Shown here: positions 3,973 to 62,572 of the stretch, piece by piece
Layout of the letters: every line of letters begins with the position of its first letter
How positions within the stretch are numbered: the stretch's first letter is position 1
Assembly: GCF_012844455.2 (NCBI RefSeq)
Contig: NZ_JABBCQ020000013.1
Coordinates: 62,001-126,000, forward strand
Reading direction: 5' to 3'
Length of the DNA stretch: 64,000 bases
Origin: Comamonas suwonensis
Lineage (GTDB): Bacteria; Pseudomonadota; Gammaproteobacteria; Burkholderiales; Burkholderiaceae_C
The notes under the pieces: generated by a model
Told to the model about the DNA's origin: nothing
What the model saw: only the letters and a program-made list of their open reading frames with translations
Databases searched by the model: none
Made by a program: the position numbers and the translations under genes

Positions 3973-4035
3973 TATCAAATTGATAGCTTCTAGCGCTTTA
4001 TCTACAAGGGATTGAGGCCTATTTTGCTTGGATTT
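3973..4035 (+). repeat. Family A dispersed repeat, copy 1
   Basis: Contains the left arm GATAGCTTCTAGCGCTT, a short spacer and the right arm AAGGGATTGAGGCC, followed by ATTTTGC. It fills the gap between the sirtuin stop and the chrA stop almost exactly, so both converging genes end at the element. Confidence 0.8.
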
Positions 4036-4635
4036 TTATACCCAATGCAAGGCACCCAGCAATGCGCCGCTGCCCAGCAGCCACAGCAGATGAATGCGTG
4101 TGCGCCACACCATCAACGTGCACACAAGGCTCAGCAGCCACAGCTTCCAGTCCTTTTGCCACTGACCGCTGGCGCTGCCCAGCAGCCAGCCTGTGGCCAG
4201 CAGCAGGCCAATGACCAGCGGTGCCATGCCTTGCTTGAAGGCGCGCACAGCGCGCTTGTCGCGGTTGCGCTGACCCCAGCGCGACGCTTGCCAGGTCAGC
4301 AGCGAGCTGGGCAACAAAATTCCCACCATGCAGATGGTCACGCCCAGCGCGCCCAAGGTCCATGCCCCAGGGCCGCTGCCACCGCCAGCGTTCAGTCCCA
4401 CATTCCAGCCCAGCAGGGCGATGAACAGCACATTCGGGCCAGGCGCGGCTTGTGCAATGGCGATGGAGCTGGTGAACTGTGTTTCGGTCAACCAGTGATT
4501 GCCATCGACCAGATAGCGGTGCATGTCGGGGGCCGCCGTAATCGCGCCGCCCACAGCCATCAGCGACAGTGTCAGAAAATAAACCAGCAGATGTAGCCAG
4601 TCCATGGCCGTCAGGTGAATGAACAAGGTGTTCAT
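4036..4635 (-). CDS. chrA: Chromate transporter, second half-size ChrA subunit
   Basis: 199-residue, very hydrophobic protein matching one half of a full-length ChrA. It has several membrane helices and the conserved AQAAPGPNVLFIALLGW segment near residue 60. The ATG overlaps the stop of the upstream half-gene (ATGA), and GGAGG lies 8 bases before it. Together the two genes make a short-chain ChrA pair, a layout known to work as a heterodimer in CHR-family chromate exporters. Chromate as substrate is inferred from family only. Confidence 0.82.
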   Translation of the reverse strand: MNTLFIHLTAMDWLHLLVYFLTLSLMAVGGAITAAPDMHRYLVDGNHWLTETQFTSSIAIAQAAPGPNVLFIALLGWNVGLNAGGGSGPGAWTLGALGVTICMVGILLPSSLLTWQASRWGQRNRDKRAVRAFKQGMAPLVIGLLLATGWLLGSASGQWQKDWKLWLLSLVCTLMVWRTRIHLLWLLGSGALLGALHWV

Positions 4636-5219
4636 GTCAACCTCCGGTATGTCAGCATGCAGCCCGTGCCGCCGACCAAAACCAGTGCCCAGAACAGCGG
4701 CAGGCGCAGCACGGCGACCATCACAAAGGCGGCCATGGCCAGGCCTGCGCAATACCATTTGCCCAGCGGATGCTTGCGCAGCGTGCCCGCCAGCTTGAGG
4801 CCCATGCCTGCCACCAGCCCGGCGGCCACGGCACCCATGCCGCGCAGCGCCCCGGCAACGGCCGGGTTGCCTGCAAACTGCGCATAGACCAGGGTGAGGC
4901 TGATGACCACCAACATGGGAAAGGTCAGCATGCCGCACAGCCCCACCAGCGCGCCTCGCCAGCCAAAGTAGCGCTCGCCCAGCATGATGGAGAGGTTAAC
5001 CACATTAGGGCCGGGCATGATCTGGGCCACGGCCCAGTCCTCCATGAATTCCTCGTTGCTCAGCCACTGGCGCTTTTCGACCAGCTCGCGCTGCACCACG
5101 GCCAGTACGCCGCCAAAGCCCTGCAGGGCCAGAAAGGTCAGCGACCAGAACAGTTCGCGCAGGTGACGAGGGCGAGGGCGCTCGTTCAGTGAGGCGGAGG
5201 ATGGTGTAGGGCCAGGGCT
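4632..5219 (-). CDS. chrA: Chromate transporter, first half-size ChrA subunit
   Basis: About 195 residues with a short polar N-terminus, then ChrA-type helices. They include FLALQGFGG, the signature AVAQIMPGPNVVNLS and a GWRGALVG loop. It precedes and overlaps its partner by 4 bp, so the two are translationally coupled. The ATG at 5219 is chosen because it gives the usual family N-terminus; a TTG 33 bases upstream is possible. An FMN reductase of the ChrR/YieF type is encoded far away at 54.4 kb, with nothing in the sequence linking them. Confidence 0.82.
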   Translation of the reverse strand, partial: SPGPTPSSASLNERPRPRHLRELFWSLTFLALQGFGGVLAVVQRELVEKRQWLSNEEFMEDWAVAQIMPGPNVVNLSIMLGERYFGWRGALVGLCGMLTFPMLVVISLTLVYAQFAGNPAVAGALRGMGAVAAGLVAGMGLKLAGTLRKHPLGKWYCAGLAMAAFVMVAVLRLPLFWALVLVGGTGCMLTYRRLT

Positions 5220-5633
5220 CATGCGTACAACTATTGATACATGCGCATGCAATCAGCACATATTGCTATCAATTATGAATTGCTTGATGCCTTCTGAACA
5301 TGCCTGGGTGGCTATATCAGCTATCAGTTGCGCTCATACCGCCTTGCACAAGTGAGATGGCCGTGCAGCCGGTACGGTGGTAATGACGGAGGTTTGATTG
5401 CAGGCAGACTTGGGCTTGCTAGTCGGTGGTCTATTGGAGACTTTGCTGGTAGCTCTTGAGGGATTCGAGCATAGGTAGATACAGCCCGCCTGTGATCATG
5501 GAGTTCAGCATCCGGGTTTTCATTTTTTCGCAATAGCACTCTTTGACAGACAAGCCCGTCAGAACTTACGAAGCGTCATCTGTCACTTTTCAAGAATTTT
5601 GGGATGAACTTTCTCTTCAAGTGCTTGCTGCTC
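5220..5633. other. Gene-less stretch of about 410 bp
   Basis: No convincing gene, RNA or terminator. It holds the promoter side of the chrA pair, with a 10-bp perfect palindrome CATGCGCATG at 5240-5249 and faint remains of a family A repeat around 5255-5285. The only open frame (about 70 codons, minus strand) has no family resemblance or ribosome site. Confidence 0.5.
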
Positions 5634-6185
5634 TTACTTTGAGAGCTGTTCCTGCAAGTGACGAGCCTGCTTGATGTCGATTCGCTTGGCGGCAATCTTG
5701 GCCACGCATTCGAGCTTGTTCAGGTCTTTGGCCGTCAGGCTTTCATCGGCGGCCTGACTGAAGCAGCACAGCGTGCCGTAGATCTCGCCACTGGCCAGCA
5801 CGATAGGCGTGCTGATGTGCGCGCCAACGCGAAAGGGCGTGACGGGCAGCAGAGGGAAGGCTGGGTGTGTTGCGGCATCGTTCACAAGACTGGGCAGGCG
5901 GCCATCCAGCACGCACTGGCAAAATGATTCTTCCAATGGGCCGCCGCCGCCAGTGGCAATCAACTCCTTGCCCGCCGCAGTATCGACATGCTTGAACATG
6001 CGCTGACCGTTGCGAATTTCGGAGACAAAAATCACCTCCATGGACAGGTGCTGGCGCAGGTCGTGCAAGACCTGACGCACATTTTCATCAATCAGTTCAT
6101 CACTCTGGTCGGCAGTGGCCAGCAACAACTCGCTGACCTGAACCTCCAATGCCTCTGGTGCGTAATCCCAATTGTGAATAGCCAT
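5634..6185 (-). CDS. GAF-domain protein
   Basis: 183-residue soluble protein consisting almost wholly of one GAF domain (about residues 20-170). It shows the pattern EVIFVSEI, a Cys-containing SFCQCVLDG loop, VGAHISTPIVLASGEIYGTLCCFS and a C-terminal helix. There is no output domain, so it may bind a small ligand or redox cofactor and act through a partner. The ATG is followed by a normal N-terminus, but no strong ribosome site is visible. It lies alone between chrA and an XRE regulator; a shared transcript with the regulator is possible (118 bp gap). Confidence 0.75.
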   Translation of the reverse strand: MAIHNWDYAPEALEVQVSELLLATADQSDELIDENVRQVLHDLRQHLSMEVIFVSEIRNGQRMFKHVDTAAGKELIATGGGGPLEESFCQCVLDGRLPSLVNDAATHPAFPLLPVTPFRVGAHISTPIVLASGEIYGTLCCFSQAADESLTAKDLNKLECVAKIAAKRIDIKQARHLQEQLSK

Positions 6186-6302
6186 CTCTCAAACCTCGGA
6201 CTGCGTTACAAAAATCAGACCATTGTGGCGGAACACTTTCTGCCAGCGCATTAACAAGATGTAAGAATTCTGGCGAAGAGCAGGCCAGGCGCAGCACAGG
6301 TT

Positions 6303-6605
6303 TCAGCGCTTTTCGGTTGCTGGGCTGGCAGGGGGATCGACAGGCGATTCGGCGGGTGTCTGTGCGTTGCTGGCCGACTGAATCAAGGCCTGCACCTGCC
6401 CGTGCAAAACAGCGGGCACGGCAATCAGCTCCATGCCCAGCACGCGGGCCATCTCCTGCAGGGTGGAAAAGCGCGGATCCACATCGCCGGTTTCCGTGCG
6501 CTGCACGGCCATGCGCGACAAGCCAGCGCGCTCGGCTAAGTCCGCCTGGGTGATACGGGCCGCTTTGCGGGTCTGGGCCAGGGTGGTGATGAGTTCAGAA
6601 ATCAT
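6303..6605 (-). CDS. XRE-family helix-turn-helix regulator
   Basis: 100 residues. The HTH_3 domain spans about 8-62, with the turn in ITQADLAERAGLSRMAVQRTE and the motif DVDPRFSTLQEMARVLG typical of HipB/Cro-like regulators. The C-terminal 35 residues are Pro/Ala/Ser-rich and probably disordered. No toxin or HipA gene is adjacent, so it is best called an orphan regulator. Its ATG is 126 bp from the divergent cardiolipin synthase start, so it could control that promoter; this is inference. Confidence 0.78.
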   Translation of the reverse strand: MISELITTLAQTRKAARITQADLAERAGLSRMAVQRTETGDVDPRFSTLQEMARVLGMELIAVPAVLHGQVQALIQSASNAQTPAESPVDPPASPATEKR

Positions 6606-6731
6606 GCGTATGAATGTACGCTTTTTGTGTGGTGTGAATCGCCTGCAGAGCCCGGAATTTGGCGTTTGTCGGCATTCTGTCGCCAGAGTGTGCGAGCATG
6701 ATCATGCCCAATACAACGATAGGAGTTCCAA

Positions 6732-8186
6732 TTGGACTGGATCGCTGCCCAGCTCGGTCATGAAAACGTCAAGCTCTGGCTTTCTGCAGGCTGGACGTTC
6801 TATGTCGTCGTGGTCGGCGTCTGGATCTTGCTGCAGCGCAGCCAGCCCATTGCCACGCTAAGCTGGCTGCTGTCCATGGCGGCTCTGCCGGTGGTCGGCC
6901 TGGTGGTCTATTACTACTTCGGGCCTCAGCGCATGAAGCGCCAGCGCATCAAGCGATTGCGCTCCCGAAAGCGCTCGCGTGTGCGCAGCAGCATGCAAAA
7001 ACTCAGGGAGCGTATTCCGGCACAACAAGAACGGCTGCGTCAGGTGGCCAGGCTGGTAGGCATGACCAGCGATTTCCCGGTGAGTACGGCCACCTCCATG
7101 CAGCTGCTGGTGGGAGGCGCCGCCACTTTCGATGCGATTGCCGATGCTGTGAACGCCGCGCGCCACCATGTGCATCTGGAGTACTACATCTACGAGCCCG
7201 ACCAGACGGGCACGGCGCTGCGCGATCTGCTGATTGAAAAGGCGAAGGCCGGTGTGCAGGTTCGGCTTCTGATCGATGCGCTGGGATCCAAAAAACTGGG
7301 GCGAACATTTCTGAAGCCGCTGCAGCAGGCTGGGGCAGAGGTACTGCGCTTTCACGACTCCAAGATAGGGCGGCGGCTGAGGCCTGTGGTCAACTTTCGG
7401 ACCCACCGCAAGATTTTGATCTGCGATGGCAAGGTAGGCTTTACCGGCGGCGTGAATGTGACCGACGAGGAGAACGAGCGCATCCGCGCGGACGCTTATC
7501 ACGACGTGCACATCCGGGTGGAGGGCTCTGTCGTCAGCTGGCTGCAGACGGTGTTTCTGGAAGACTGGGCCTACACGCTGGGCAAAGATCCGTACAAGCT
7601 GCCTGAAACACTGGATGACTTGCTGCCCGATTGCGAGGATGGCTCCATCCCCATGCAGGTCGTCACCTCTGGCCCCGACGACCAGCTGGATGCGATTTAC
7701 CGCGCCTACCTGGCGGCCATCAACGCGGCCCAGCAGCGCATCTGGCTGACCACGCCTTACTTTGTGCCGACGGAAGGCGCGCTGACCGCGCTGACCAATG
7801 CTGCGCTGCGCGGGGTGGATGTACGGATTCTGGTGCCCAAAAAGTCCGACTCCGTCTTTGTGACGGCCGCCGCACGCTCCTATTTTGACGAGCTGATTCG
7901 CTGCGGAGTGCATATTTATGAATATGACGCCAGCATGCTGCACTCCAAAACGCTGGTGGTCGATGACAACATGGCCATGGTAGGTACGGCCAATTTCGAT
8001 TACCGCAGCTTCTTTCTGAACTACGAGGTTTGTGTGATTGGCTACGGGCCTGAGCTGAATCAGGCGCTGGACAGGCAGTTTTTGGCGGATCTGGCCCAGG
8101 CCAGTGCCGTTCTTTATCGCAGCGAAAAAGGACTGCGCCGCCGCCTGTTTGGCTCTATCGCGCGACTGACTTCACCGCTTTTGTAA
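6732..8186 (+). CDS. cls: Cardiolipin synthase (phospholipase D family)
   Basis: 484 residues. Two membrane helices (about 18-35 and 42-62) anchor the protein, followed by a very basic segment (67-95). Two phospholipase D motifs follow: HRKILICD (His225, Lys227, Asp232) and HSKTLVVDD (His404, Lys406, Asp411), the second followed by GTANFDYRS. This is the ClsA-type layout, which joins phosphatidylglycerol molecules to make cardiolipin at the inner membrane. The start is a TTG with AGGAG 6 bases upstream. The next gene, a sirtuin, follows after 9 bp and probably shares the transcript. Confidence 0.88.
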   Translation: MDWIAAQLGHENVKLWLSAGWTFYVVVVGVWILLQRSQPIATLSWLLSMAALPVVGLVVYYYFGPQRMKRQRIKRLRSRKRSRVRSSMQKLRERIPAQQERLRQVARLVGMTSDFPVSTATSMQLLVGGAATFDAIADAVNAARHHVHLEYYIYEPDQTGTALRDLLIEKAKAGVQVRLLIDALGSKKLGRTFLKPLQQAGAEVLRFHDSKIGRRLRPVVNFRTHRKILICDGKVGFTGGVNVTDEENERIRADAYHDVHIRVEGSVVSWLQTVFLEDWAYTLGKDPYKLPETLDDLLPDCEDGSIPMQVVTSGPDDQLDAIYRAYLAAINAAQQRIWLTTPYFVPTEGALTALTNAALRGVDVRILVPKKSDSVFVTAAARSYFDELIRCGVHIYEYDASMLHSKTLVVDDNMAMVGTANFDYRSFFLNYEVCVIGYGPELNQALDRQFLADLAQASAVLYRSEKGLRRRLFGSIARLTSPLL

Positions 8187-8195
8187 TGAGACATC

Positions 8196-9032: not shown

Positions 9033-9035
9033 GTT

Positions 9036-9158
9036 CCGTGAACACGTGCGAAAAGGCCCCTTGTGCGTCGTTGCGAAGCATGGCCGTACTCACGTACTGT
9101 CTGCGGCTTTGCGCCTCGTCTCAAACGTAAACCCTTGGTGACTGGGCTGTGTTCACGG
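9036..9158 (+). repeat. Family B dispersed element, copy 1
   Basis: Bounded by a perfect 10-bp inverted repeat, CCGTGAACAC (9036-9045) and GTGTTCACGG (9149-9158). The core (about 9075-9135) contains GCCGTACTCACGTACTG, then TCTGCGGCTT and CGCCTCGTCTCAA. The core aligns with copies at 15.5 and 38.8 kb, while the terminal arms have a different sequence in each. Confidence 0.7.
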
Positions 9159-9189
9159 CGCTGAATGCGGGCTCTGACAGATGGATTCC

Positions 9190-9250
9190 TGTTTTGATAG
9201 CTGCCAGGGCATTGCTAACAAGCGCTTGAGGCCTATTTGATGTATTTTCT
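9190..9250 (+). repeat. Family A dispersed repeat, copy 2
   Basis: TTTTGATAGCTGCCAGGGC followed by AAGCGCTTGAGGCCTATTTG. It lies 30 bp after a family B element and 36 bp before the sbcB start. Confidence 0.8.
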
Positions 9251-9285
9251 TCCCAGCCATGGCTTCGCAGGCATACTTTCGCCCC

Positions 9286-10725: not shown

Positions 10726-10821
10726 GCGGCAGAGTCTTGCCGTATAAAAAGCAGCACTCGGGCACTGCAGATTAACGATAGGCAACGACCACAGCATTGC
10801 GCCAAGAACATTGCTTGTGAG

Positions 10822-11416: not shown

Positions 11417-11493
11417 TGGTAGGCGCGATTGGACTCGAACCAACGACCCCCACCATGTCAAGGTGGTGCTCTAACCAGCTGAGCTACGCGCCT
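11417..11493 (-). tRNA. tRNA-Val (anticodon GAC)
   Basis: The minus strand folds as a full cloverleaf. The acceptor stem is AGGCGCG/CGCGCCT and the D arm GCTC...GAGC. The anticodon stem is CCACC/GGTGG with loop TTGACAT (anticodon GAC), and the T arm GTTGG-TTCGAGT-CCAAT is followed by an encoded ACCA. A -10-like TACAAT (plus-strand 11511-11516) stands 18 bases upstream, and a perfect 16-bp palindrome lies at 11524-11539 just beyond it. Confidence 0.97.
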
Positions 11494-14130: not shown

Positions 14131-15477
14131 ATGAATTCAATGTTTGACAGCCAAAGCCCAGCATCTACGCCGCGTGTGTGGGATGTTGGGGCGCTATGCC
14201 ACGCCATTGGTGATGCCCTGCAGGCCCGCTTCAACCCGGTCACGGTGCGCGGCGAGTTGAGCGGCTTCTCGCGCGCTGCCAGCGGGCATTGCTATTTCAA
14301 TCTCAAAGACGCCAGTGGACAGATTCGCTGTGCCATGTTCCGTCGAGCTGCCGAGCAGGTGGGCTTTTCGCCGCGCGATGGTGAACTGGTGGAGGTGCGT
14401 GGGCGTCTGGGCGTATATGAACAGCGCGGCGACCTGCAACTGGTGGTGGAAGGCATGCAGCGCGCCGGGCAGGGCGCTTTGTTTGAGCAGTTTTTGCGCC
14501 TCAAGGCCCAGTTGGAGAGTGAAGGTCTGTTTGACCAGGAACGTAAGCGCCCACTGGTACCGTTGCCGCGCGGCATTGGCGTTGTTACCTCGCTGGGTGC
14601 GGCGGCCTTGCACGATGTGGTGACTGCGCTGCGCCGCCGTGTGCCGCATATTCCGGTGGTGATTGCGCCCGCGCTGGTGCAGGGCGTGCAGGCACCTCAA
14701 TCCATTGTGCAGGCGCTATCAAAGATATATCAGCTAGCGCTGGCAGGGCAATCGCTAGAGGGCGATTTGGCTCTCAACAAAGCACAGCAACCCGTCATCG
14801 ACACCATCTTGCTGGTGCGCGGCGGGGGCTCGCTGGAGGACCTTTGGGCCTTCAACGACGAGCAGGTGGCGCGCACCATCGTGCAAAGCCCGGTGCCGCT
14901 GATCAGCGGGGTGGGTCACGAAACAGATTTCACCATTGCCGACTTCTGCGCCGACCTGCGTGCGCCCACGCCCACGGCGGCGGCAGAGCTGGTGGCCCAG
15001 CCGCGTGAGGTTTGGCTGGGCGCGCTGGATTTGATGCACGACCGGCTCGACAACGCCATGCAGCGCCTGCTGGACAGGCATGCCCAGCGGCTTGATCTCG
15101 CCGCCGGGCGGCTGGGCCGACCCAGCGAGCAACTGGGCCGCAACCACCTGCAACTGGCAAGGCAAGCCCAGCGCCTGCGGCATGCCATGCTCTTAAAACT
15201 GCAGCAACTTGCACAGAGCCAGCAATCGCTACAGGTCAATTTGCCTTATATTTTGCAGCGCAGTCTGGAGCAGCAAAAAAATCGGCTCGACCGTATAGAC
15301 CTGCGTCTACAACTGCTGGACCCGCGTCTGGTGCTACAGCGAGGCTATGCCTTGCTGACGGATGAGAAGGGCAAGCCTGTGACCCAGGTCAGACAGGCTG
15401 CGCCAGGGGCGGCGCTCAAGGCGCAGCTGTCGGATGGGTCTGTGGATCTGGTCGTCACCCAGCCGCGTCTGCTCTGA
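14131..15477 (+). CDS. xseA: Exodeoxyribonuclease VII large subunit
   Basis: 448 residues. The N-terminal OB fold covers about 15-115 (VRGELSGFSRAASGHCYFNLKD). The catalytic domain shows GIGVVTSLGAAALHDVV, DTILLVRGGGSLEDLWAFND and SGVGHETDFTIADF, and a coiled-coil region (about 295-410) follows. It pairs with XseB (not seen here) to degrade single-stranded DNA. Residues about 195-215 (ALSKIYQLALAGQSLEGDLA) come from a family A repeat lying in frame inside the gene. A second, weaker match lies in the coiled coil (15184-15256). Confidence 0.92.
   Translation: MNSMFDSQSPASTPRVWDVGALCHAIGDALQARFNPVTVRGELSGFSRAASGHCYFNLKDASGQIRCAMFRRAAEQVGFSPRDGELVEVRGRLGVYEQRGDLQLVVEGMQRAGQGALFEQFLRLKAQLESEGLFDQERKRPLVPLPRGIGVVTSLGAAALHDVVTALRRRVPHIPVVIAPALVQGVQAPQSIVQALSKIYQLALAGQSLEGDLALNKAQQPVIDTILLVRGGGSLEDLWAFNDEQVARTIVQSPVPLISGVGHETDFTIADFCADLRAPTPTAAAELVAQPREVWLGALDLMHDRLDNAMQRLLDRHAQRLDLAAGRLGRPSEQLGRNHLQLARQAQRLRHAMLLKLQQLAQSQQSLQVNLPYILQRSLEQQKNRLDRIDLRLQLLDPRLVLQRGYALLTDEKGKPVTQVRQAAPGAALKAQLSDGSVDLVVTQPRLL
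14716..14777 (+). repeat. Family A dispersed repeat, copy 3, inside xseA
   Basis: ATATCAGCTAGCGCTGGCAG then GGCAATCGCTAGAGGGCGAT. It follows the element layout closely while staying open in the xseA frame. Confidence 0.7.
15184..15256 (+). repeat. Possible degenerate family A repeat inside xseA
   Basis: The right half, CAATCGCTACAGGTCAATTT followed by GCCTTATATTTTG, looks like an element tail, but the left arm is poorly kept (CAGCAACTTGC). Tentative. Confidence 0.35.
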
Positions 15478-16581: not shown

Positions 16582-16606
16582 GTGTCTGCTGTCTGATTTT
16601 TTGTAA

Positions 16607-16662
16607 TGATTCAAGGCTTTAGCCCATTCATAGCAAGTGCAGGCAGCTATGTTTTTTGGTGC
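16607..16662 (-). repeat. Family A dispersed repeat, copy 4
   Basis: On the minus strand: CAAAAAACATAGCTGCCTGC, ACTTGC, then GGGCTAAAGCC. It lies between the sodB terminator and the truncated dioxygenase gene. Confidence 0.65.
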
Positions 16663-20798: not shown

Positions 20799-21033
20799 TG
20801 TAGGTCTTGCAGTCTTTGGATGGGCATTAATGTGCGGGCAAATTGAGTCGTTTGCTCCATGGCGGGCATCTGCTTGAGCGCACTAGTCAGGAACCTGCAA
20901 ATTTCTCTCAAAAATAGTAGCGCGGTTGGCAGGATCTGTGTGCCTCAAAGACATTTTTAACGTAAACAATCGTCACACAACTCGTTCAAATGAGGGATTT
21001 GCGCAGTGCAGCGCTCATTACAATACGCAGCTG

Positions 21034-21250
21034 TTGGTGCTCGAGGCTGCTTTTCTGTGGCCTCAGTTCAACGGGAAGCAGGGAGGTGCTGGCCAGAAAT
21101 ACTGGCACACCGGGCCTGCGCTGCCCCCGCAACGGTCGGCGAATGGAATGCCTTTGCACTCCGCCTTTTCCATCAAAGCCACTGGCGCTTGCGCGCTGGG
21201 AAGGCTGGCTAAAGGACGATTCGCCTAGCCCGGATACCGGCCAACGGCGG
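21034..21250 (+). promoter_or_regulatory. Cobalamin (B12) riboswitch
   Basis: The conserved parts appear in order: GTTGGTGCTCGAGG (P2/P3 entry), GGGAAGCAGGGAGG, CTGCCCCCGCAACGGT, AAGCCACTGG, CGATTCGCC, and the B12 box AGCCCGGATACCGGCC at 21227-21242. A -10 box TACAAT lies at 21019-21024. Just after the aptamer, TGCCTGCA/TGCAGGCA (21253-21273) makes an 8-bp hairpin without a T run, which points to translational control or an expression platform, not an intrinsic terminator. It should turn off btuB and the downstream genes when adenosylcobalamin is abundant. Confidence 0.95.
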
Positions 21251-21329
21251 TGTGCCTGCATTGTGTGCAGGCATGTATTGCTCACTGTCGGCGGGTAGGC
21301 TGGCGTGGGCGCTTCATTGCTGATTTTTC

Positions 21330-24662: not shown

Positions 24663-25274
24663 ATGAGCGTTGCAAGCACTCCCTCCATCGTCATGCCGCG
24701 TACGCAGTTCATTCTGGGCGGTCAAAAAAGCGGTAAGTCCCGCCGTGCAGAGCTGCTGGCACGCCAATGGCTGCAAAGCGGGGCGCAGCATCAGGCGGTG
24801 CTGGTGGCCACCGGTCAGGCCTGGGATGCCGAGATGACTGAGCGCATTGCCCGCCACCAGCGTGACCGTGCCGAGCGCGTGCCCGGCATGCAGACGCTGG
24901 AGGAGCCGCGTGAACTGGCGCAGGTGATTGCGCAGCACAGCCGCCCCGAGCGCCTGCTGGTGATTGACTGCCTGACGCTGTGGCTGACCAACTGGCTCAT
25001 GCCGGTAGAGACTGAAAAATCTGAAGAAAAAACGTCTCTAGACCAAGACTGGCAGGCGCAGTTAGCTATGTTTTTGAAAGCATTGGATGACGCGCCTGGC
25101 CCCATCATCTTGGTGGGCAACGAGATTGGTCTGGGTGTGATTCCCATGGGCCGCGAAGTGCGTGCCTTTGTGGATGCACTGGGCGTGCTCAACCAGCAAG
25201 TGGCAGCGCATTGCGAAAGCGCCACGTTGATGTGCGCGGGTCTGCCGCTGGCGCTGAAAGGGCCGCAAGCATGA
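24663..25274 (+). CDS. cobU: Adenosylcobinamide kinase / guanylyltransferase
   Basis: 203 residues. P-loop ILGGQKSGKSRRAE, then LVATGQAWDAEMTERIARHQ, the LLVIDCLTLWLTN strand and LVGNEIGLGVIPMGREVRAF. It phosphorylates adenosylcobinamide and transfers GMP to it. The protein is longer than the usual 180 or so residues. Residues about 117-139 (VETEKSEEKTSLDQDWQAQL region), between the LTLWLTNWL strand and the next helix, are encoded by a family A repeat in reverse orientation. Its stop overlaps the btuF start (ATGA). Confidence 0.92.
   Translation: MSVASTPSIVMPRTQFILGGQKSGKSRRAELLARQWLQSGAQHQAVLVATGQAWDAEMTERIARHQRDRAERVPGMQTLEEPRELAQVIAQHSRPERLLVIDCLTLWLTNWLMPVETEKSEEKTSLDQDWQAQLAMFLKALDDAPGPIILVGNEIGLGVIPMGREVRAFVDALGVLNQQVAAHCESATLMCAGLPLALKGPQA
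25013..25079 (-). repeat. Family A dispersed repeat, copy 5, inside cobU
   Basis: On the minus strand: TTTCAAAAACATAGCTAACT, GCGCCTGCCAG, then GGTCTAGAGACGTTTTTTC. Arms, spacing and AT-rich ends match the intergenic copies, and the cobU frame stays open through it. Confidence 0.65.
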
Positions 25275-28046: not shown

Positions 28047-28103
28047 GAATTTTGAGTCTTTTTACCCTTTAGCCCTTGATAGACCAACGAGAGCAGCTAT
28101 GCA
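28047..28103 (-). repeat. Family A dispersed repeat, copy 6, at the cobO start
   Basis: On the minus strand: GCATAGCTGCTCTCGTTGGT, CTATCAAGGGCTAAAGGG, then TAAAAAGACTC. It fills the whole btuD-cobO gap. The reverse of its GCATAGC end supplies the cobO start codon, and GAGAG inside it lies 6 bases before that ATG. Confidence 0.65.
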
Positions 28104-28668
28104 TATTGAAACGCCACCCACCGAAAAACCCTATGAAAAACCCGAGGGCGAGCGCCGCGGCCTGATCATCGTCAACACCGGCAACGGCAAGGGCAAAAGC
28201 ACGGCAGCTTTTGGTCTGGCCTTTCGCGCCACGGGCCGGGGCAAGGCCGTCAAGGTCTATCAGTTCATGAAGGTGCCCACGGCCCGCTTTGGCGAGCACC
28301 GCCTGGCCGAGCAGGTGGGCCTGCCTATTGAAGGGCTGGGCGACGGCTTCAGCTGGAAGAGCAAGGACCTGGACCACTCCGCTCAGCTGGCACGCGATGG
28401 CTGGGAAAAAGCCAAGGCCGACATCCTTTCTGGCGAGCTGTTTCTGGTGGTGCTGGATGAAATCACCTACCCGCTGATCTACGGCTGGCTGCCGCTGCAA
28501 GACGTGCTGGACACGCTCAAGGCGCGTCCCAAGGATGTGCATGTCTGCCTGACAGGCCGCCGCTGCCCGCAGGAGATCATCGACATGGCCGACACCGTCA
28601 CCGAGATGACGATGATCAAACACGCGTTTCAAGCGGGTATTCCCGCCCAACGAGGGATAGAGGACTAA
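28099..28668 (+). CDS. cobO: Corrinoid adenosyltransferase CobO/BtuR
   Basis: 189 residues. RecA-like fold with P-loop NTGNGKGKSTAAFGLAFRA, the VYQFMK strand, LFLVVLDEITYPL and the conserved end VHVCLTGRRCPQEIIDMADT, VTEMTMIKHAF and GIEF-like IPAQRGIED. It transfers the 5'-deoxyadenosyl group from ATP to Co(I) corrinoids. The start was chosen at the ATG that gives the normal polar N-terminus. It is the only gene of the block whose start lies within a dispersed repeat. Confidence 0.92.
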   Translation: MHIETPPTEKPYEKPEGERRGLIIVNTGNGKGKSTAAFGLAFRATGRGKAVKVYQFMKVPTARFGEHRLAEQVGLPIEGLGDGFSWKSKDLDHSAQLARDGWEKAKADILSGELFLVVLDEITYPLIYGWLPLQDVLDTLKARPKDVHVCLTGRRCPQEIIDMADTVTEMTMIKHAFQAGIPAQRGIED

Positions 28669-29578: not shown

Positions 29579-30657
29579 CAGCAATAACCTGGGCTGAGCT
29601 GATCGGTCTGCCCCTCAGCCCCGTGGTGTGGTTGTATCAAACCTTCACTTCCAGTGATCAGGCGGCATGGCATTGGGCGGGCAATGTACAAGCCGCTTTG
29701 CTGGCCGTGCTGGTCGCCTTGCTGATGGACAGGCTTTGGGGGGAGCCGCCGGTCTGGCTGCACCCGGTGGTCCTGATGGGCAAGCTGCTGGGCTGGGCCG
29801 GGCAGGCCATTGCGCCACGCCACGAGGTGAAACATGACTTTGGGCGTTTTGGCCTTGCAGCGCTTGCGTGGTGCGGTCTGGCTGCTCTGTTTTTTAGTGT
29901 TTATTGGCTGGCCCAGTTCATGCTGGGTTTTGCACCTTGGTGGATGTGGGGGCTGGTGATGGGTGTGCTGCTCAAGCCTTTGCTGTCCTGGCGCATGCTC
30001 AAAGAAGAGGTGTTGGCGGTGGAAGCGGCCTTGCAGCAATCGCTGCCTGCCGGGCGTGAGCGCTTGTCCTGGCTGGTGAGTCGCGACACCGCGCAGCTCG
30101 ATGCGGCCACCGTGCGCGAAAGCGCGATTGAGACGCTGGCCGAGAATTTGAGTGATTCGGTGATCGCCCCGCTGTTCTGGTTTGCCGTGGCAGGCTTGCC
30201 GGGTGCGGCGGTCTATCGGCTGGCCAATACCGCAGACGCTATGTGGGGCTACCCCGGCTGGCGCGGCCAGGGGGACAAACGCCGCCACTGGCAATGGGCC
30301 GGCAAATGGGCGGCGCGGGCAGACGATGTGCTCAACTGGATTCCAGCGCGCATCACCGCGCTATGGCTGGCGCTGGTCGCGGGCGGTGTGTCATGGAGCG
30401 GCCTGAGGCGCGACGCGCGCGTGACGCCATCGCCCAACGGCGGCTGGCCCATGGGCGCCATGGCGCAGGCGCTGGGTGTGCATCTTTCCAAGCCCGGCGT
30501 GTACCAGCTCAATCCGCAGGGGCGGGGACCAGAGTCTGAGGACTTGCAGAAATCCGTAAAATTGGCATCTAAAGTGATTGCAGCGCAGGTGCTGCTTGCG
30601 CTGATAGCTATGATTTTTATGGCGCTCTGGATGTGGAAGCTGGTTGGGAATGTTTGA
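29575..30657 (+). CDS. cbiB: Adenosylcobinamide-phosphate synthase CbiB
   Basis: 360 residues, integral membrane protein. The family core starts at ALLMDRLWGEPPVWLHPVVL and includes VRESAIETLAENLSDSVIAPL, ANTADAMWGYPGW and RADDVLNWIPARITA. It attaches aminopropanol phosphate to adenosylcobyrate. Both ends are extended: about 40 N-terminal residues precede the core, and the last 35 (KSVKLASKVIAAQVLLALIA onward) lie within a reverse family A repeat that now codes for the final membrane helix. Called cobD in Pseudomonas naming. Confidence 0.9.
   Translation: MTAITWAELIGLPLSPVVWLYQTFTSSDQAAWHWAGNVQAALLAVLVALLMDRLWGEPPVWLHPVVLMGKLLGWAGQAIAPRHEVKHDFGRFGLAALAWCGLAALFFSVYWLAQFMLGFAPWWMWGLVMGVLLKPLLSWRMLKEEVLAVEAALQQSLPAGRERLSWLVSRDTAQLDAATVRESAIETLAENLSDSVIAPLFWFAVAGLPGAAVYRLANTADAMWGYPGWRGQGDKRRHWQWAGKWAARADDVLNWIPARITALWLALVAGGVSWSGLRRDARVTPSPNGGWPMGAMAQALGVHLSKPGVYQLNPQGRGPESEDLQKSVKLASKVIAAQVLLALIAMIFMALWMWKLVGNV
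30549..30623 (-). repeat. Family A dispersed repeat, copy 7, in the cbiB 3' end
   Basis: On the minus strand: AAAATCATAGCTATCAGCGC, AAGCAGCACCTGCGCTGCAA, TCACTTTAGATGCC. The left arm is near perfect; the right side is a variant with GCGCTGCAATC in place of GCGCTAGAGGC. Confidence 0.6.
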
Positions 30658-36257: not shown

Positions 36258-36312
36258 ACTTTAAAAAGAATAGCTGCTAGCGCTTTAAATGTAAGGAGTT
36301 AAGGCGCTTTTA
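36258..36312 (+). repeat. Family A dispersed repeat, copy 8
   Basis: AAAAAGAATAGCTGCTAGCG, CTTTAAATGTAAGGAGTTAA, GGCGCTTTTAGC. It lies between the converging cobT and nth genes, its right end running into the nth stop codon. Confidence 0.75.
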
Positions 36313-43226: not shown

Positions 43227-43285
43227 TTTTCATAAAAAAGGCCTGTAGCGCTTGCCAGGCAATCGCAGGTTGCTACTGTTTTGGT
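43227..43285 (-). repeat. Family A dispersed repeat, copy 9, overlapping the argP end
   Basis: On the minus strand: CCAAAACAGTAGCAACCTGC, GATTGCCTGGC, AAGCGCTACAGGCC, TTTTTTATG. The TAG of its left arm is the argP stop codon, and the argP C-terminus enters the element. The T-rich end could also serve as a terminator. Confidence 0.75.
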
Positions 43286-46863: not shown

Positions 46864-46920
46864 TATGAAAAGAGATGCTGCAAGCGCTTGCTAACCAAGG
46901 CTTTGCATAAATTTTCATAG
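46864..46920 (+). repeat. Family A dispersed repeat, copy 10
   Basis: ATGAAAAGAGATGCTGCAAG, CGCTTGCTAACCAAGGCTTT, GCATAAATTTTCAT. It starts 10 bp after the rhtA stop; its AT-rich ends are themselves complementary (ATGAAAA / TTTTCAT). Confidence 0.7.
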
Positions 46921-52199: not shown

Positions 52200-52207
52200 A
52201 AGTTTCA

Positions 52208-52262
52208 AGGGAAAAGTGCTTGTAGCGCTTATTTATCAAGCGATGCAGGCTATCAAATAAAG
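52208..52262 (-). repeat. Family A dispersed repeat, copy 11
   Basis: On the minus strand: TTATTTGATAGCCTGCATCG, CTTGATAAATAAGCGCTACA, AGCACTTTTCCC. It follows the spoVR stop by 8 bp and precedes a terminator. Confidence 0.75.
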
Positions 52263-52280
52263 AGCTATTCGCCAGAAAGC

Positions 52281-57867: not shown

Positions 57868-57956
57868 GGAGGCGGGTCAGATCAGGTTCTGCCGCCATCT
57901 TGCCCCGTCTGCATTAGCAGCGCCTTAATAGCCTTGTTGCTCTATTGCAGGGCTTG

Positions 57957-60900
57957 TCAGGCATGTGCCGGTGCTTTTGCCTTGAGCGGCTGGCCCAGAC
58001 TGCGAAGCACATCACGCACCATTTGCGCGCGGTCCTTGGGGTTTTCCAGTTCTTTTTCGATACGCAGCTTTTCGTTGCCCGCCAGCTTGATGTGCTTATT
58101 CTTCTGAATCAGATGAATGATATTCATCGGGTCAATGGGCGGCTGCGGCTTGAAGGTGATGTTGATGACGCCGGGCGCGGCATCCACCTTGATCACGCCG
58201 TAAGGCTGGCTCAGAACGCGCAGGCGGTGTACATCGATGAGGGTCTGGGCCTGGGGCGGCAGCTTGCCAAAGCGATCCACGATTTCTTCGAGCAGGGTGT
58301 CGATCTGATCGGCCGTCTTGGCCGTGGCCAGCTTTTTATAGAAAGACAGGCGCAGATGCACATCGCCGCAGTAGTCGTTGGGCAACAGTGCCGGCGCATG
58401 CAGATTGATATCGGTCGATGCTGACAGGGGGGAGAGCAGGTCGGGCTCTTTGCCAGCCTTCAGGCTGCGCACGGCTTCGGACAGCATTTCGTTGTAGAGC
58501 TGAAAGCCCACTTCCAGCATATTGCCGCTCTGGTTTTCTCCCAGTACCTCGCCCGCACCGCGAATTTCCAGGTCATGCATGGCCAGATAGAAACCGCTGC
58601 CCAGCTCCTCCATCTGCTGAATGGCCTCCAGCCGCTGCTGGGCCTGCTTGGTCAGGCCGTCCAGGTCCGGCACCATCAGATAGGCATAGGCTTGATGGTG
58701 GCTGCGGCCCACACGGCCACGCAGCTGATGCAGCTGGGCCAGGCCGAACTTGTCTGCGCGGCTGATGAGGATGGTGTTGGCGCTAGGAACATCGATACCG
58801 GTTTCGATAATCGTCGAGCACAGCAGAATGTTGTAGCGCTGGGCCACAAAGTCGCGCATCACGCGTTCGAGCTCGCGCTCGGGCATCTGGCCGTGGGCCA
58901 CGGCAATGCGGGCCTCGGGCAAGATTTCTTCCAGCTTTTGCTTGCGGTTCTCGATGGTGTCGACTTCGTTGTGCAGAAAGTAAACCTGCCCGCCACGCTT
59001 GAGTTCACGCAGCACAGCTTCGCGGATGACGCCGGTGCCTTCGTTGCGCACAAAGGTCTTGATGGCCAGACGGCGTTGCGGTGCAGTGGCAATCACCGAT
59101 AGATCGCGCAAACCTTCCAGTGCCATGCCCATGGTGCGGGGAATGGGGGTGGCCGTCAGCGTCAAGATGTCCACCTCGGCGCGCATGGCCTTCATGGCTT
59201 CCTTGTGGCGCACGCCAAAGCGGTGCTCCTCGTCGATGATGAGCAGGCCCAGATTCTTGAACTGGGTGGATTCGGACAGCAGCTTGTGCGTGCCAACCAC
59301 GATGTCCACCGTGCCATCGGCAATGCCCTTGATGGCAGCGGTAATCTCTTTGCCCGAGCGAAAGCGCGAAACCTCGGCCACCTTGATAGGCCACTTGGAA
59401 AAGCGATCGACCAGTGTCTGGTAATGCTGCTCGGCCAGCAGCGTGGTGGGTGCCAAAAACGCCACTTGCTTGCCGCCCATGGCGGCCACAAAGGCCGCGC
59501 GCAGGGCGACCTCGGTCTTGCCAAAGCCCACATCGCCGCAGACCAGGCGGTCCATGGGCTGGGGTGAAATCATGTCCTGAATTACGGCATGAATGGCGGC
59601 GTTCTGGTCGGCGGTTTCTTCAAAGCCGAAGTCAGCCACAAACTGCTCGTAGTCCGCTGTTGGGAAGCGGAAGGCATGGCCCTGGCGCGCCGCACGGCGG
59701 GCGTAGATGTTGAGCAGCTCGGCGGCCGAGTCGCGCACCTGCTCGGCGGCCTTGCGCTTGGCCTTTTCCCATTGCGAGCCGCCCAGTTTGTGCAAAGGGG
59801 CGTCGTCAGGCGAGACGCCGGTGTAGCGACTGATGTAGTGCAACTGGCTCACGGGCACATAGAGCACGGCGCTGGCGGCGTACTCCAGGTGCAGAAACTC
59901 CTGTAGCGCAGGGGTGCCGTCGGGGTTTTTCTGGCCCATGTCCATATTGATGAGGCCACGGTAGCGGCCAATGCCGTGGTCGGAGTGGACGATGGGGTCG
60001 CCCACTTTCAGCTCAGACAAGTCCTTGATCAGCGCCTCTACATCGCTGACTTGCTCCTGCCTGCGGCGGCGGCGCCCCGTGGGGCTGGTGGCGAACAGTT
60101 CGGTTTCAGTGACAAAGTCCAAGCCTTCTTCCACCCAGGCAAAGCCGTTCATCAAGCCTGAGGTGGCTATGCCGATTTTTTCCGTCGTATCGGTCTGGAA
60201 CTCGGCCAGCGAATCAAACACTGGCGGGTTGACACCCGAGGCACGGAAAAAGTCCAGCAGGCTTTCACGTCTGCCATCCGATTCGGCAAGAAGCAGCACC
60301 CGGCTTGCGGAAGCTGCTATATGTTTTTGCAGCTTGGCGAGCGGATCTTCGGCACCGCGAACGACGGACAAGTCCGTGAGTTTCTGAAAAATGGCGCTGT
60401 CGGCCACATCTTCGGTGCCGGGACGCAGGGCCAGCTGGGCATGCTCTTTGCTGCGGGTGTAGAACTGCTCGGAGGTCAGGAACAGCGTCTCAGGCGGCAG
60501 GGCAGGGTGGTCAGGGTCGCCTTGCACCAGACGGTAGCGGTCCTTGGTGTCTTGCCAAAAACGCTGAAAGGCGGGCTCCAGATCACCGTGCAGCACCACT
60601 GTGGCTTCGTCGCCCAGATAGTCAAACACCGTCGCGGTTTCATCAAAGAACAGCGGCAGGTAGTACTCGATACCGGCCGTGGCAATGCCCAGGCCCATGT
60701 CTTTGTAGACACGGCTGCGCGTGGGGTCGCCTTCCAGCATTTCGCGCCAGCGGCTGCGGAACTTGGCGCGCGCGTCCTCATCCATGGGAAATTCGCGACC
60801 GGGCAGCAGGCGCACTTCGGGTACGGGGTAGAGGCTGCGCTGGCTGTCCGGGTCAAAAGTGCGGATGGAGTCGATTTCGTCATCGAACAGATCGACGCGA

Positions 60901-61448
60901 TATGGCACTTGCGAGCCCATGGGGAACAAGTCGATCAGGCCCCCACGCACCGCATATTCACCATGGCTGACCACTTGCGACACATGCTGATAGCCCGCCA
61001 GCGTGAGCTGGGCCTTGAGCTTGGCTTCATCGAGCTTTTGCCCGCTTTTGAATTCAAAGGTGTAGCCCGCCAGAAAAGACGGAGGGGCCAGTCGGTACAG
61101 CGCCGTGGTGGCGGGCACGATGACCACATCGGCCCCATGCTCCTTATCGCGCTGGTTGATGCGCCACAGGGCGGCCAGTCGCTCGCTGATCAAGTCTTGG
61201 TGCGGCGAGAAACCGTCGTAAGGCAGGGTTTCCCAGTCGGGAAACAGGGCGCAGCGCAGATCCGGCGCGAAGAAGGCCATTTCTTCCATCAGGCGGCGTG
61301 CATCGGACGCATCAGCCGTGACGATGGCGATCACGCGGCCATCGCTCTTCTCGCGCTCGCCCAGCTTGGCCAGCAGCAGTGCATCGGCGCTGCCTGTGGG
61401 GCGGGGCAGGTGAAAGCGTTTACCAGGAGTGAGCTTGGGCAGTTGCAT
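57957..61448 (-). CDS. mfd: Transcription-repair coupling factor Mfd
   Basis: 1163 residues with the full Mfd layout. The UvrB-like N-terminal part includes ALFPDWETLPYDGFSPHQDL. The RNA polymerase interaction domain starts VGDPIVHSDHGIGRYRGL. The helicase has Walker A GDVGFGKTEVALRAAF, DEEHRFGVRHKEAMK, motif III LTATPIPRTMGMAL and QLRGRVGRSHHQAYAYLM, and the C-terminal TRCF domain follows. It removes stalled RNA polymerase and recruits UvrA. The ATG before QLPKLTPGKRF fits the family start. Confidence 0.96.
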   Translation of the reverse strand: MQLPKLTPGKRFHLPRPTGSADALLLAKLGEREKSDGRVIAIVTADASDARRLMEEMAFFAPDLRCALFPDWETLPYDGFSPHQDLISERLAALWRINQRDKEHGADVVIVPATTALYRLAPPSFLAGYTFEFKSGQKLDEAKLKAQLTLAGYQHVSQVVSHGEYAVRGGLIDLFPMGSQVPYRVDLFDDEIDSIRTFDPDSQRSLYPVPEVRLLPGREFPMDEDARAKFRSRWREMLEGDPTRSRVYKDMGLGIATAGIEYYLPLFFDETATVFDYLGDEATVVLHGDLEPAFQRFWQDTKDRYRLVQGDPDHPALPPETLFLTSEQFYTRSKEHAQLALRPGTEDVADSAIFQKLTDLSVVRGAEDPLAKLQKHIAASASRVLLLAESDGRRESLLDFFRASGVNPPVFDSLAEFQTDTTEKIGIATSGLMNGFAWVEEGLDFVTETELFATSPTGRRRRRQEQVSDVEALIKDLSELKVGDPIVHSDHGIGRYRGLINMDMGQKNPDGTPALQEFLHLEYAASAVLYVPVSQLHYISRYTGVSPDDAPLHKLGGSQWEKAKRKAAEQVRDSAAELLNIYARRAARQGHAFRFPTADYEQFVADFGFEETADQNAAIHAVIQDMISPQPMDRLVCGDVGFGKTEVALRAAFVAAMGGKQVAFLAPTTLLAEQHYQTLVDRFSKWPIKVAEVSRFRSGKEITAAIKGIADGTVDIVVGTHKLLSESTQFKNLGLLIIDEEHRFGVRHKEAMKAMRAEVDILTLTATPIPRTMGMALEGLRDLSVIATAPQRRLAIKTFVRNEGTGVIREAVLRELKRGGQVYFLHNEVDTIENRKQKLEEILPEARIAVAHGQMPERELERVMRDFVAQRYNILLCSTIIETGIDVPSANTILISRADKFGLAQLHQLRGRVGRSHHQAYAYLMVPDLDGLTKQAQQRLEAIQQMEELGSGFYLAMHDLEIRGAGEVLGENQSGNMLEVGFQLYNEMLSEAVRSLKAGKEPDLLSPLSASTDINLHAPALLPNDYCGDVHLRLSFYKKLATAKTADQIDTLLEEIVDRFGKLPPQAQTLIDVHRLRVLSQPYGVIKVDAAPGVINITFKPQPPIDPMNIIHLIQKNKHIKLAGNEKLRIEKELENPKDRAQMVRDVLRSLGQPLKAKAPAHA

Positions 61449-61694
61449 GGTTTTCACAGACGAGCAGATGCAGCCGGGCACAGGCGCTGGCTGCATGCGT
61501 TAAAACGGGGACAGATTAAGTGCAGGCGAGTTTGCCCCTCAAGGGCTTGGCTCACAGGCCAGTCAGCACAGGACTGACGCTTGGCGACACATTCACTCAA
61601 AATGGGGGCACCTCTCGGTGATGCAAGCCGAAAGCAGTGCCAAAGATTTGGCGGATCCGCTTTCGGGCGAAACAGTAATTTTAAAATAGAGCGC

Positions 61695-62495
61695 ATGACA
61701 GATCGGTTTTTCTCGCCTGAGTCCATGCCGGACGCCAAGGCAAACGCTGCTGCAGCGTCTTCATCTCTGGTGGCCGTGCCGCGCTGCTGGGCGCTGATTC
61801 CCTGCGCGGGCGTGGGCTCACGAGCTATGGCCGCCGATGCTCCGGCGCCTGAGCTGCCAAAGCAATACCAGAGCGTGGCGGGCCAGCCCATGGTCATGCA
61901 CACGCTGGCGGCCATGCTGCAGGTTGCGTGCATGCACCAGGTGCTGGTCGTTGTCTCGCCAGCCGACACCTTTTGGCAAGCGCGTGCCCTTGAAAGCCGA
62001 CTTGCCGTGGCCCCGTGCGGCGGCGCAACCCGTGCCGAGACGGTGACCAACGGCCTGCAAGAGCTGCTGCGCATGGGAGCAAGCCCTGATGACTGGGTGT
62101 TGGTGCATGATGCGGCGCGCTGTCTGGTGACGGGTGCACAGGTCAACATGCTGATGGATGCCTGCTTGCCCGATACGGTGGGTGGCCTGTTGGCGCTGAA
62201 GTTGCCCGACACGCTGAAACAGCAATCGACAGACAGGGGGGCAGCCCGTGTGGCGCAGACGGTAGACCGCAGCGATAAATGGCTGGCGCAGACGCCGCAG
62301 ATGTTTCGCATCGGCGCGCTGTTGGCAGCCTTGCAGGCGGCGGGCGATGCGGTGACGGACGAAGCCAGCGCCATGGAACTGGCAGGCCACGCACCACTCC
62401 TGGTGCCCGGCGGTGCGCAGAACTTTAAGGTGACCTATCCCGACGATTTTGCGTTGGCTGAGGCCGTGCTGATGCAGCGCCGGGTTGCTCGCTAA
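61695..62495 (+). CDS. ispD: 2-C-methyl-D-erythritol 4-phosphate cytidylyltransferase
   Basis: 266 residues. CWALIPCAGVGSRA and ELPKQYQSVAGQPMVMHTLA form the nucleotide-binding loop. GGATRAETVTNGLQELL, VLVHDAARCLV and QTPQMFRIGALLAAL, DEASAMEL follow. It performs the third step of the MEP isoprenoid pathway. About 30 extra residues precede the family core. It starts 246 bp from the divergent mfd start. ispF follows after a family A repeat. Confidence 0.93.
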   Translation: MTDRFFSPESMPDAKANAAAASSSLVAVPRCWALIPCAGVGSRAMAADAPAPELPKQYQSVAGQPMVMHTLAAMLQVACMHQVLVVVSPADTFWQARALESRLAVAPCGGATRAETVTNGLQELLRMGASPDDWVLVHDAARCLVTGAQVNMLMDACLPDTVGGLLALKLPDTLKQQSTDRGAARVAQTVDRSDKWLAQTPQMFRIGALLAALQAAGDAVTDEASAMELAGHAPLLVPGGAQNFKVTYPDDFALAEAVLMQRRVAR

Positions 62496-62516
62496 GCGTC
62501 GTGCTAGGCACTGATT

Positions 62517-62572
62517 AATATCAAATTGATAGCTGATGGCGCTTTATTTACAAGCGCTGGGAAAGGATTTTG
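62517..62572 (+). repeat. Family A dispersed repeat, copy 12, between ispD and ispF
   Basis: TATCAAATTGATAGCTGATG, GCGCTTTATTTACAAGCGCT, GGGAAAGGATTTTG. Where other copies read GAGGCCTATTTTG, this one reads GGAAAGGATTTTG, which is the ispF ribosome site. Confidence 0.8.

Follow-up and report, generated by a model that had tools for sequence, protein, structure and literature searches.

A short, partly palindromic element recurs through a 64-kb window of the Comamonas suwonensis genome (the window being the whole stretch of DNA analysed), and the question raised by these copies is whether they belong to an active dispersal system or are sites kept in place by selection. Extragenic palindromic repeats are mostly interpreted as selfish DNA or RNA hairpins. 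The family described here is large, its positions are inherited across species, the arms of its class A copies are not kept complementary, and its paired half-sites observe two rigid spacings; together these features make a chromosome-organising role of such repeats directly testable.

A dispersed family at gene 3' ends

Each of the 12 coordinates listed in the initial annotation was scored with three profiles, one of the whole family (A1), one of its left half (LH) and an iterated one built earlier, and a 464-kb sample of the genome was scanned alongside five block-shuffled versions of itself. The shuffles contain no match at A1 of at least 12 bits; at A1 of at least 12 or LH of at least 11 bits the sample holds 74 loci, against 0.2 per 464 kb in the shuffles, and the window holds 11. 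Bit scores are inflated, since A1 and LH were trained partly on the window copies. With a consensus seed derived from the window, nine matches (eight distinct copies) outscored every one of 20 shuffles, and the core ATAGCTG-NNN-GCGCTT is present 137 times in this genome, compared with 0 for the reversed control. The repeat family is real, and the observation of a dispersed set at the 12 coordinates is confirmed for 11 of them (Table 1). Nine score 14.9–42.9 bits with A1, 25013 and 30549 fall below the A1 cut-off but pass with LH, and 46864 is weak, block-shuffles yielding 0.4 matches per 464 kb at A1 of at least 10.

Table 1 Copies of the element in the 64-kb window, with strand given by the best A1 match
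Annotated at	Extent	Strand	Copy	Context	A1 (bits)	LH (bits)
3973	3973..4030	+	class A	between convergent genes	42.9	
9190	9187..9241	+	class A	tandem genes	39.1	
14716	14715..14773	+	class A	within called gene 14176-15477	30.4	
16607	16606..16656	-	class A	tandem genes	17.5	13.9
25013	25030..25081	-	degenerate	within called gene	9.0	11.4
28047	28052..28109	-	class A	start 6 bp past stop codon	14.9	
30549	30556..30619	-	degenerate	within end of called gene	8.7	12.2
36258	36258..36295	+	left half	between convergent genes	22.6	23.6
43227	43231..43277	-	class A	between convergent genes	24.6	
46864	46877..46899	+	weak, partial, doubtful		10.4	8.5
52208	52204..52265	-	class A	between convergent genes	30.8	
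62517	62519..62560	+	class A	tandem genes	32.3	

The strand split of seven against the rest becomes six on each strand, a loose call for a near-palindromic element, and the proposed density of about one copy per 5 kb is lowered to about one per 6 kb over the 464-kb sample; the figure of about 750 copies per genome is an extrapolation. Genes were called with our own hexamer caller (coding 81–85% in the window and contig C11, 70–81% in the stretches of relative G171), and starts and small genes are therefore approximate. With these calls, 8 of the 12 copies are no more than 40 bp from a stop codon, as had been claimed for most of them, the copy at 30549 lying inside the end of its gene; those at 14716 and 25013 are also inside called genes, and the nearest upstream stop is 155 bp away for 9190 and 105 bp for 16607.

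The wider sample bears out both the position at 3' ends and the description as a dispersed, REP-like family. The copies are mostly intergenic, with 6/65 inside called genes, and are found mainly between convergent genes: convergent gaps hold 27 of the 59 intergenic copies, whereas they make up 48 of the 255 gaps of at least 60 bp (p=4e-5), and divergent gaps hold 7/59 against 67/255 (p=0.018). A replichore polarity, considered because only plus-strand copies were among the matches listed for G004 and G128, was rejected when G128 proved to carry two forward and three reverse copies in the same 100 kb.

Half-sites, spacings and arm pairing

The repeat unit spans about 68 bp, with sharp boundaries and A/T-rich ends, and is built from a half-site, AGCTG-NNN-GCGC, in A/T-rich flanks (usual context ATAGCTGCTAGCGCTT). 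In class A the two halves are about 38 bp apart and the second arm is a variant, AAGCGCTAGAGGCC; class C is symmetric, likewise at about 38 bp; and class B has halves about 79 bp apart, with the inner pair GGTTTCAG...CTGAAACC. Facing half-sites within 160 bp of each other take only two distances, 37–38 bp (13/63) and 78–80 bp (50/63), with exactly 79 bp in 46/63; a stricter cut leaves 6/44 and 38/44. The inner spacer, put at 5–10 bp in the initial annotation, is exactly 7 bp in all 80 intact copies listed from a set of genome contigs, where 5–9 bp was permitted. AGC is present in 80/80 class B halves. The stem foot is ATAG (67/84) or GTAG (11/84) in 78/84 Comamonas class A copies, and ATAG, AGAG, GTAG or GGAG in 64/80 class B halves. 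IHF-like near matches (12 of 13) occur in 21/40 class B and 24/84 class A copies, against 0–7 and 1–7 for scrambled words; they lie at scattered positions, exact ones are absent from class B, and the enrichment is a weak lead.

The GCGCTT and AAGCGC halves had been expected to pair, and compensatory change in unselected class A copies does not uphold this. Unselected class A arms pair about as often as reshuffled ones, with little or no covariation in Comamonas (285/1000 shuffles as good) and in G015 (122/1000), and the consensus retains non-complementary positions. The absence of covariation between class A arms, in part demonstrated, makes the palindrome look more like a dyad in double-stranded DNA than a hairpin. 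Two observations favour a hairpin over a dyad: modest arm covariation at several positions in class B, and a class A set from G072, G120, G136 and G010 slightly above shuffles (9/1000).

These data bear on the possibility that the elements act at gene ends as RNA hairpins, either transcription terminators working in both directions or hairpins of another kind, and that the repeated word is carried along. The sites follow stop codons and occupy convergent gaps, in some copies a T-run follows a perfect hairpin, class B arms covary, and a terminator-like hairpin overlaps the element in 8 of the 26 convergent gaps that contain one. However, the hairpin is separate in 13 of these 26 gaps, overlap is seen in just 1/28 tandem gaps with an element, and separate hairpins in tandem gaps are as frequent without the element (37/122) as with it (10/28). 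Together with the uncompensated class A arms of Comamonas and G015 and the non-complementary consensus positions, this makes a terminator origin rather unlikely.

Inherited positions and constraint on the half-site

In five relatives, the orthologous gaps still containing an element number 32/32, 18/20, 13/15, 9/13 and 9/15, while gaps that are element-free here have one in 5/95, 3/44, 1/35, 2/37 and 1/29. At the site at 3973, the G171 ortholog forms a perfect hairpin, a copy is present in G191, and G198, G156, G173 and G193 are without one. Comparison with the nearest relative revealed no empty sites among the 34 and 40 that could be resolved, and near-identical copies in unrelated flanking sequence were not seen. 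The retention of position across species and these two negative results argue against the active dispersal system that had been put forward as one option; the copies look like old sites holding their places, not like jumping copies.

The other option, selection, finds signs in its favour. In four distant relatives AGC is identical in 199/207 cells and GCGC in 215/276, compared with 116/207 for the adjacent NNN, the copies having been picked in the C. suwonensis genome only and cells from related genomes not being independent. Outside AGC and GCGC, conservation of the element does not exceed the 69–74% background of its own gaps. An early impression of saturated flanks came from ungapped profiles and was abandoned, because gapped alignment gives 69–74% identity outside the element; the claim of constraint was accordingly narrowed to AGC and GCGC against NNN. 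As far as alignment goes, constraint is shown for AGC and in part only for GCGC, whose conservation in G178 is 0.53. Over the whole 14-bp core, conservation against background is 0.70 vs 0.70 in G178 and 0.77 vs 0.74 in G198, and sharing at the element level in G178 (5/18) is below gap-level sharing. These values, and the overlaps with terminator-like hairpins, were counted against a dyad.

Fossil remnants of a miniature transposon (MITE or REPIN-like, 68–120 bp) that multiplied in an ancestor shared by these genera, having since decayed in place and being without a present function, would account for several of these features. A long common consensus with sharp ends at many unrelated places is the expected trace of copying, which the near-symmetric class B modules also fit; two syntenic relatives lack the family; the right arm, loop and tails change no more slowly than the background; and identity at free positions rises to 87% in a few pairs of intact copies whose flanks are unrelated, compared with a column-shuffle maximum of 77%. 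Such fossils, however, would not be expected to keep AGC and GCGC constrained relative to the neighbouring NNN or to hold position over long times, no transposase is tied to the element, and the bimodal copy number within the genus (23 genomes with 0–8 exact cores and 30 with 21–163) is not simple decay. We assign this origin a low probability.

The long-held positions suggest instead that some protein reads the sites. From the sites, their spacings, their placement and their conservation we infer, with even confidence for and against, that several hundred ancient, vertically inherited sites are bound by a protein specific for them as double-stranded DNA. The putative protein would recognise AGCTG-NNN-GCGC half-sites on the duplex, and since the two spacings differ by 41 bp, or about four helical turns, both halves could be contacted by one protein from the same side of the helix. 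By analogy with E. coli BIME/REP elements, it would likely act at the level of the chromosome, as a nucleoid protein or a topoisomerase at places where convergent transcription terminates. A broader proposal, advanced tentatively, is that the facing AGCTG-N3-GCGC pairs, with their two spacings, make up an array of topological or boundary sites spread over hundreds of gene ends, part of an undescribed protein–DNA system that spans the chromosome in Comamonadaceae and is kept or lost clade by clade. If clades keep or lack the putative array as a unit, bimodal copy numbers would follow, and this spread within one genus offers natural with/without pairs for tracing the protein.

Known repeat systems and distribution

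E. coli BIME/REP elements comprise hundreds of short intergenic palindromes, single or in facing pairs, located at the 3' ends of genes and in convergent gaps. The present family resembles them in form, pairing and placement, but its consensus lacks the GTAG/CGTC tag, its class A arms show no covariation, its half-sites keep two rigid spacings, and it is not linked to the RAYT gene. Gyrase targeting has been described for the E. coli REPs (PMC3733652).

It is very improbable that the element is a REP family, a hairpin with a 5' ATAG tag in place of GTAG, mobilised by the RAYT-like tyrosine transposase of the genome. Like RAYT-associated REPs of the GTAG superfamily, it is a short imperfect palindrome with many intergenic copies; the feet of both classes are ATAG-like, GTAG REPs are placed alike as described in PMC3733652, and the genome has one PF01797 gene (G000:C12:43423-43704). 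This is its only PF01797 match, in agreement with the earlier statement that the window holds no RAYT. However, GTAG proper is confined to 11/84 class A copies, whose arms lack covariation, and the co-occurrence with a RAYT that the initial annotation had proposed to look for is not found: PF01797 is present in 26/30 element-rich and 21/23 element-poor members of the genus (p=0.69). Of 14 RAYT neighbourhoods (5–11 kb), 11 are without a match, including that of this genome, two have weak matches (10.0 and 12.1 bits), one has a good copy at a distance of about 2.6 kb, and in none is the gene flanked by a pair of copies.

The uptake signal sequences of Haemophilus and Neisseria are likewise repeated words that also occur in facing pairs where genes end, but are far denser and more exact; with 35 exact 14-mers among about 750 extrapolated loci and copies that are degenerate and nearly all intergenic, a DNA uptake sequence maintained by biased transformation is highly unlikely here. 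The Haemophilus facing pairs are mentioned in PMC5217627. The Beta-proteobacterial repeat element (BRE), a dispersed repeat of unknown function in Betaproteobacteria including Comamonadaceae, is described as 75–91 bp long, with an average of 69% GC and in tandem VNTR-like groups (PMC3110155); this description sets the BRE of Bordetella apart from the present unit of about 68 bp with A/T-rich ends, for which no tandem VNTR-like groups were seen.

Part of the motif is already listed. Table 7 of PMC5217627 (2017), 'potential novel motifs', gives GCTTAT(N)5AAGCG of Acidovorax ebreus TPSY, unexplained, in 114 copies, 107 of them intergenic (44 convergent, 4 divergent and 59 co-oriented). This motif corresponds to the interior of class A (GCTT-AT-N5-AAGCG within GCGCTT-N7-AAGCGC) and has the same placement near gene ends; that entry covers the motif pair, and the unit, half-sites, two spacings, inheritance of position and a mechanism are absent from it. 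The Polaromonas motif ATAGCT(N)22CAAAAG in the same paper may be kin to this family. A guessed form, ATAGCTN4GCGCTTN7AAGGGCAAAAG, was absent from all 150 genomes, and the plain motif occurs 0 times in the stretches of G015, G072, G120, G136, G010 and G157 and once in the loci from the Comamonadaceae records named below.

The initial annotation's mention of similar strings in other Comamonadaceae proved correct, with matching records named Acidovorax, Simplicispira, Giesbergeria, Extensimonas, Paenacidovorax, Comamonas and Rhodoferax. In a viral collection, 41 stretches match the class A pattern.

Detection, anatomy and distribution of the element

On sequence comparison, the dispersed element is a real, old and selected family of putative paired DNA sites; it resembles the BIME/REP repeats of E. 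coli in copy number and placement, but tested as RAYT REPs and as active MITEs it behaves as neither. PMC5217627 lists GCTTAT(N)5AAGCG of Acidovorax ebreus among its potential novel motifs; that motif is placed as the element is and corresponds to the inner portion of class A (facing half-sites ~38 bp apart, second arm variant), so an unexplained motif has already been published. No description of the unit, the half-site, the two spacings, the positional inheritance or the covariation result was found in the literature searched.

A consensus seed from the window, which spans C4:62001-126000 of a draft genome (G000; 4.72 Mb, 67 contigs), gave nine window matches (eight distinct copies) that beat the top score of 20 shuffles. 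In 464 kb, comprising the window and 400 kb from contig C11, a profile search found 65 copies at ≥12 bits, nine within the window, and five block-shuffles gave none; with a left-half profile added, 74 loci (11 in the window) were obtained versus 0.2 in shuffles. The copies are commoner than in shuffled sequence, and profile scores uphold all twelve coordinates of the initial annotation but one, 46864 being doubtful.

A contig scan permitting spacers of 5–9 bases returned at least 119 matching stretches, and the spacer is nevertheless 7 bases in all 80 listed by name. In a stack of 117 copies, where 30 core bases were preset by the search pattern, the consensus is aatACTAttaATTTGATAGCTGCTAGCGCTT-N7-AAGCGCTAGAGGCCAATTTGaCTTgAAATTT, and information is near zero at −16 and +54, which gives a unit of ~68 bp; the three inner bases of the left core (NNN) vary freely. 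Counts of ATAGCTGNNNGCGCTT are 137 in G000 and 462, 442 and 292 in the genomes G015, G136 and G072, with 0–1 for reversed controls, and the consensuses of G015, G072, G120 and G136 are almost identical.

Within 1.66 Mb, facing left halves up to 160 bp apart occur at 37–38 bp (13 pairs) and 78–80 bp (50 pairs, class B) and at no other distance; a stricter cut, extended to 400 bp, leaves 6 at 38 and 38 at 78–80. Exactly 79 bp (62 bp if measured between 14-mers) separates 46 of the 50, a set that contains orthologues and reduces to 40 non-redundant pairs, six of them from loci picked for already showing that spacing. Class B is near-symmetric, with AGC in 80/80 halves, GCGC bases in 73–77/80, inner TTTCA bases in 61–77/80 and variable bases in between.

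The suggestion of similar strings in other Comamonadaceae is borne out by the matches listed, which include Acidovorax, Simplicispira, Giesbergeria, Extensimonas, Paenacidovorax, Comamonas, Rhodoferax and MAGs labelled merely Burkholderiaceae or Gammaproteobacteria. The exact 16-mer is present in 4/300 genomes sampled across the order, all from the window's family, and in 0/291 from other families. The NNN core occurs in 43/150 genomes of the family; within the genus, 23 genomes (poor) hold 0–8 and 30 (rich) hold 21–163. Forty-one viral-contig stretches (L258–L298) fit the class A pattern, either as prophage host flanks or as phage-borne copies.

Gene context, terminators and the RAYT-like gene

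Of the 65 copies, 27 lie in convergent, 25 in tandem and 7 in divergent gaps, and 6 inside called genes; against 48, 140 and 67 gaps of ≥60 bp, respectively, convergent placement is in excess (p = 4e-5) and divergent placement in deficit (p = 0.018). The 25 tandem-gap copies are balanced in orientation relative to the genes (11 vs 14). On C11, the element occupies 22/37 convergent, 24/130 tandem and 8/55 divergent gaps.

Terminator-like hairpins overlap the element in 8/26 convergent gaps and stand separate in 13/26, compared with 14/18 convergent gaps without it; in tandem gaps they overlap in 1/28 and stand separate in 10/28, compared with 37/122. Certain copies probably serve also as terminators, but termination does not appear to account for the whole family.

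Co-occurrence with a RAYT transposase, suggested as a check, does not hold: PF01797 (E ≤ 0.001; 47/53 genus members, a single match in G000) is about as common in rich (26/30) as in poor (21/23) genomes. Eleven of 14 RAYT neighbourhoods, that of G000 included, are without an element match, and the other three hold two weak matches and one good copy ~2.6 kb off. The G000 gene looks domesticated. Rfam at gathering score found only the riboswitch and the tRNA gene in the window.

Annotated features in the window and in G000
Feature	Position	Support or size
Cobalamin riboswitch	window 21018-21259	Rfam 84.7 bits
tRNA gene	window 11420-11493	Rfam match at gathering score
RAYT-like tyrosine transposase, single copy	G000:C12:43423-43704 (L174:5394-6107)	237 aa

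One copy immediately adjoins TGTTTCACGTGAAACA at G000:C11:286484-286536 (L022/L023 region), which we take to be a parS sequence; the arrangement is retained in G128 and G160.

Inheritance of sites

Blocks shared with the nearest relative, G171, are 91–96% identical, and no empty site was seen among copies with resolvable flanks (34/62 in G000, 40/50 in G171). Six of these 74 comparisons are of unequal length, the copy still being present in those listed. The gap at C11:211982-212762 is ~630 bp longer in G000 and carries two extra copies, so copies can enter or leave together with larger pieces.

Counted by gap, the element is retained at G000 sites in 32/32 (G171), 18/20 (G160), 13/15 (G128), 9/13 (G198) and 9/15 (G178) cases, and gaps that are element-free in G000 hold one in the relative in 5/95, 3/44, 1/35, 2/37 and 1/29 cases, in the same order; a stricter single-element count gives 38/38, 16/18, 15/19, 10/17 and 5/18. 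Same-orientation orthologous copies are closer than others (0.69–0.72 vs 0.47–0.48; G198, G128, G160). The absence of empty sites against G171 and the retention across five relatives speak against the active dispersal first considered, and the family has probably spread by descent, not hopping.

At longer range sites are lost or gained, since site 3973, a perfect hairpin in G171 with a copy in G191, has none in G198, G156, G173 and G193. In two GC-richer genus members, G200 and G192, a 100-kb stretch of each yielded no copy scoring ≥12 bits; the element is absent from 6/6 comparable sites in G200 and from 1/2 in G192, where the second site rests on a weak match. When 118 intact copies were compared, the highest identity at free positions between two copies whose flanks are unrelated was 87%, against 77% in column shuffles; some top pairs resemble orthologues whose flanks have diverged, and others may be old duplicates. 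Three adjacent near-identical copies sharing flanks in G015 (L238–L244), among the matches listed, are apparently a local tandem duplication.

Constraint and arm pairing

Copies selected in G000 only were read in four distant relatives by gapped alignment, which gives 52% for random sequence and 69–74% outside the elements in the same gaps. Identical cells number 199/207 for AGC, 215/276 for GCGC, 116/207 for the adjacent NNN, 312/483 for the loop and 119/207 for positions 33–35; cells of related genomes are not independent, yet AGC exceeds NNN in every genome. Conservation of the right arm and loop does not exceed the level outside the elements, nor does that of the whole 14-bp core in G178. 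Core positions 7–9, between AGCTG and GCGC, are more divergent than the gap (116/207 vs 69–74%).

The proposed pairing of the GCGCTT/AAGCGC halves shows little compensatory change in class A. In Comamonas (77 copies; 285/1000 shuffles equal) and G015 (27 copies; 122/1000), class A arms pair about as often as they do after reshuffling between copies; in the G072/G120/G136/G010 set they slightly exceed shuffles (36 copies; 9/1000); the G157 sample comprises 7 class A copies. A further 84-copy class A test is concordant, with 1/13 position pairs at p = 0.012. For class B, agreement is above chance at several mirrored positions (arm sum 12.95 vs 11.75 expected). From these patterns, class A looks like a putative site recognised as double strand, and class B may form a hairpin as well. 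In Comamonas class A and B copies, IHF-like near matches outnumber scrambled words, at scattered positions.
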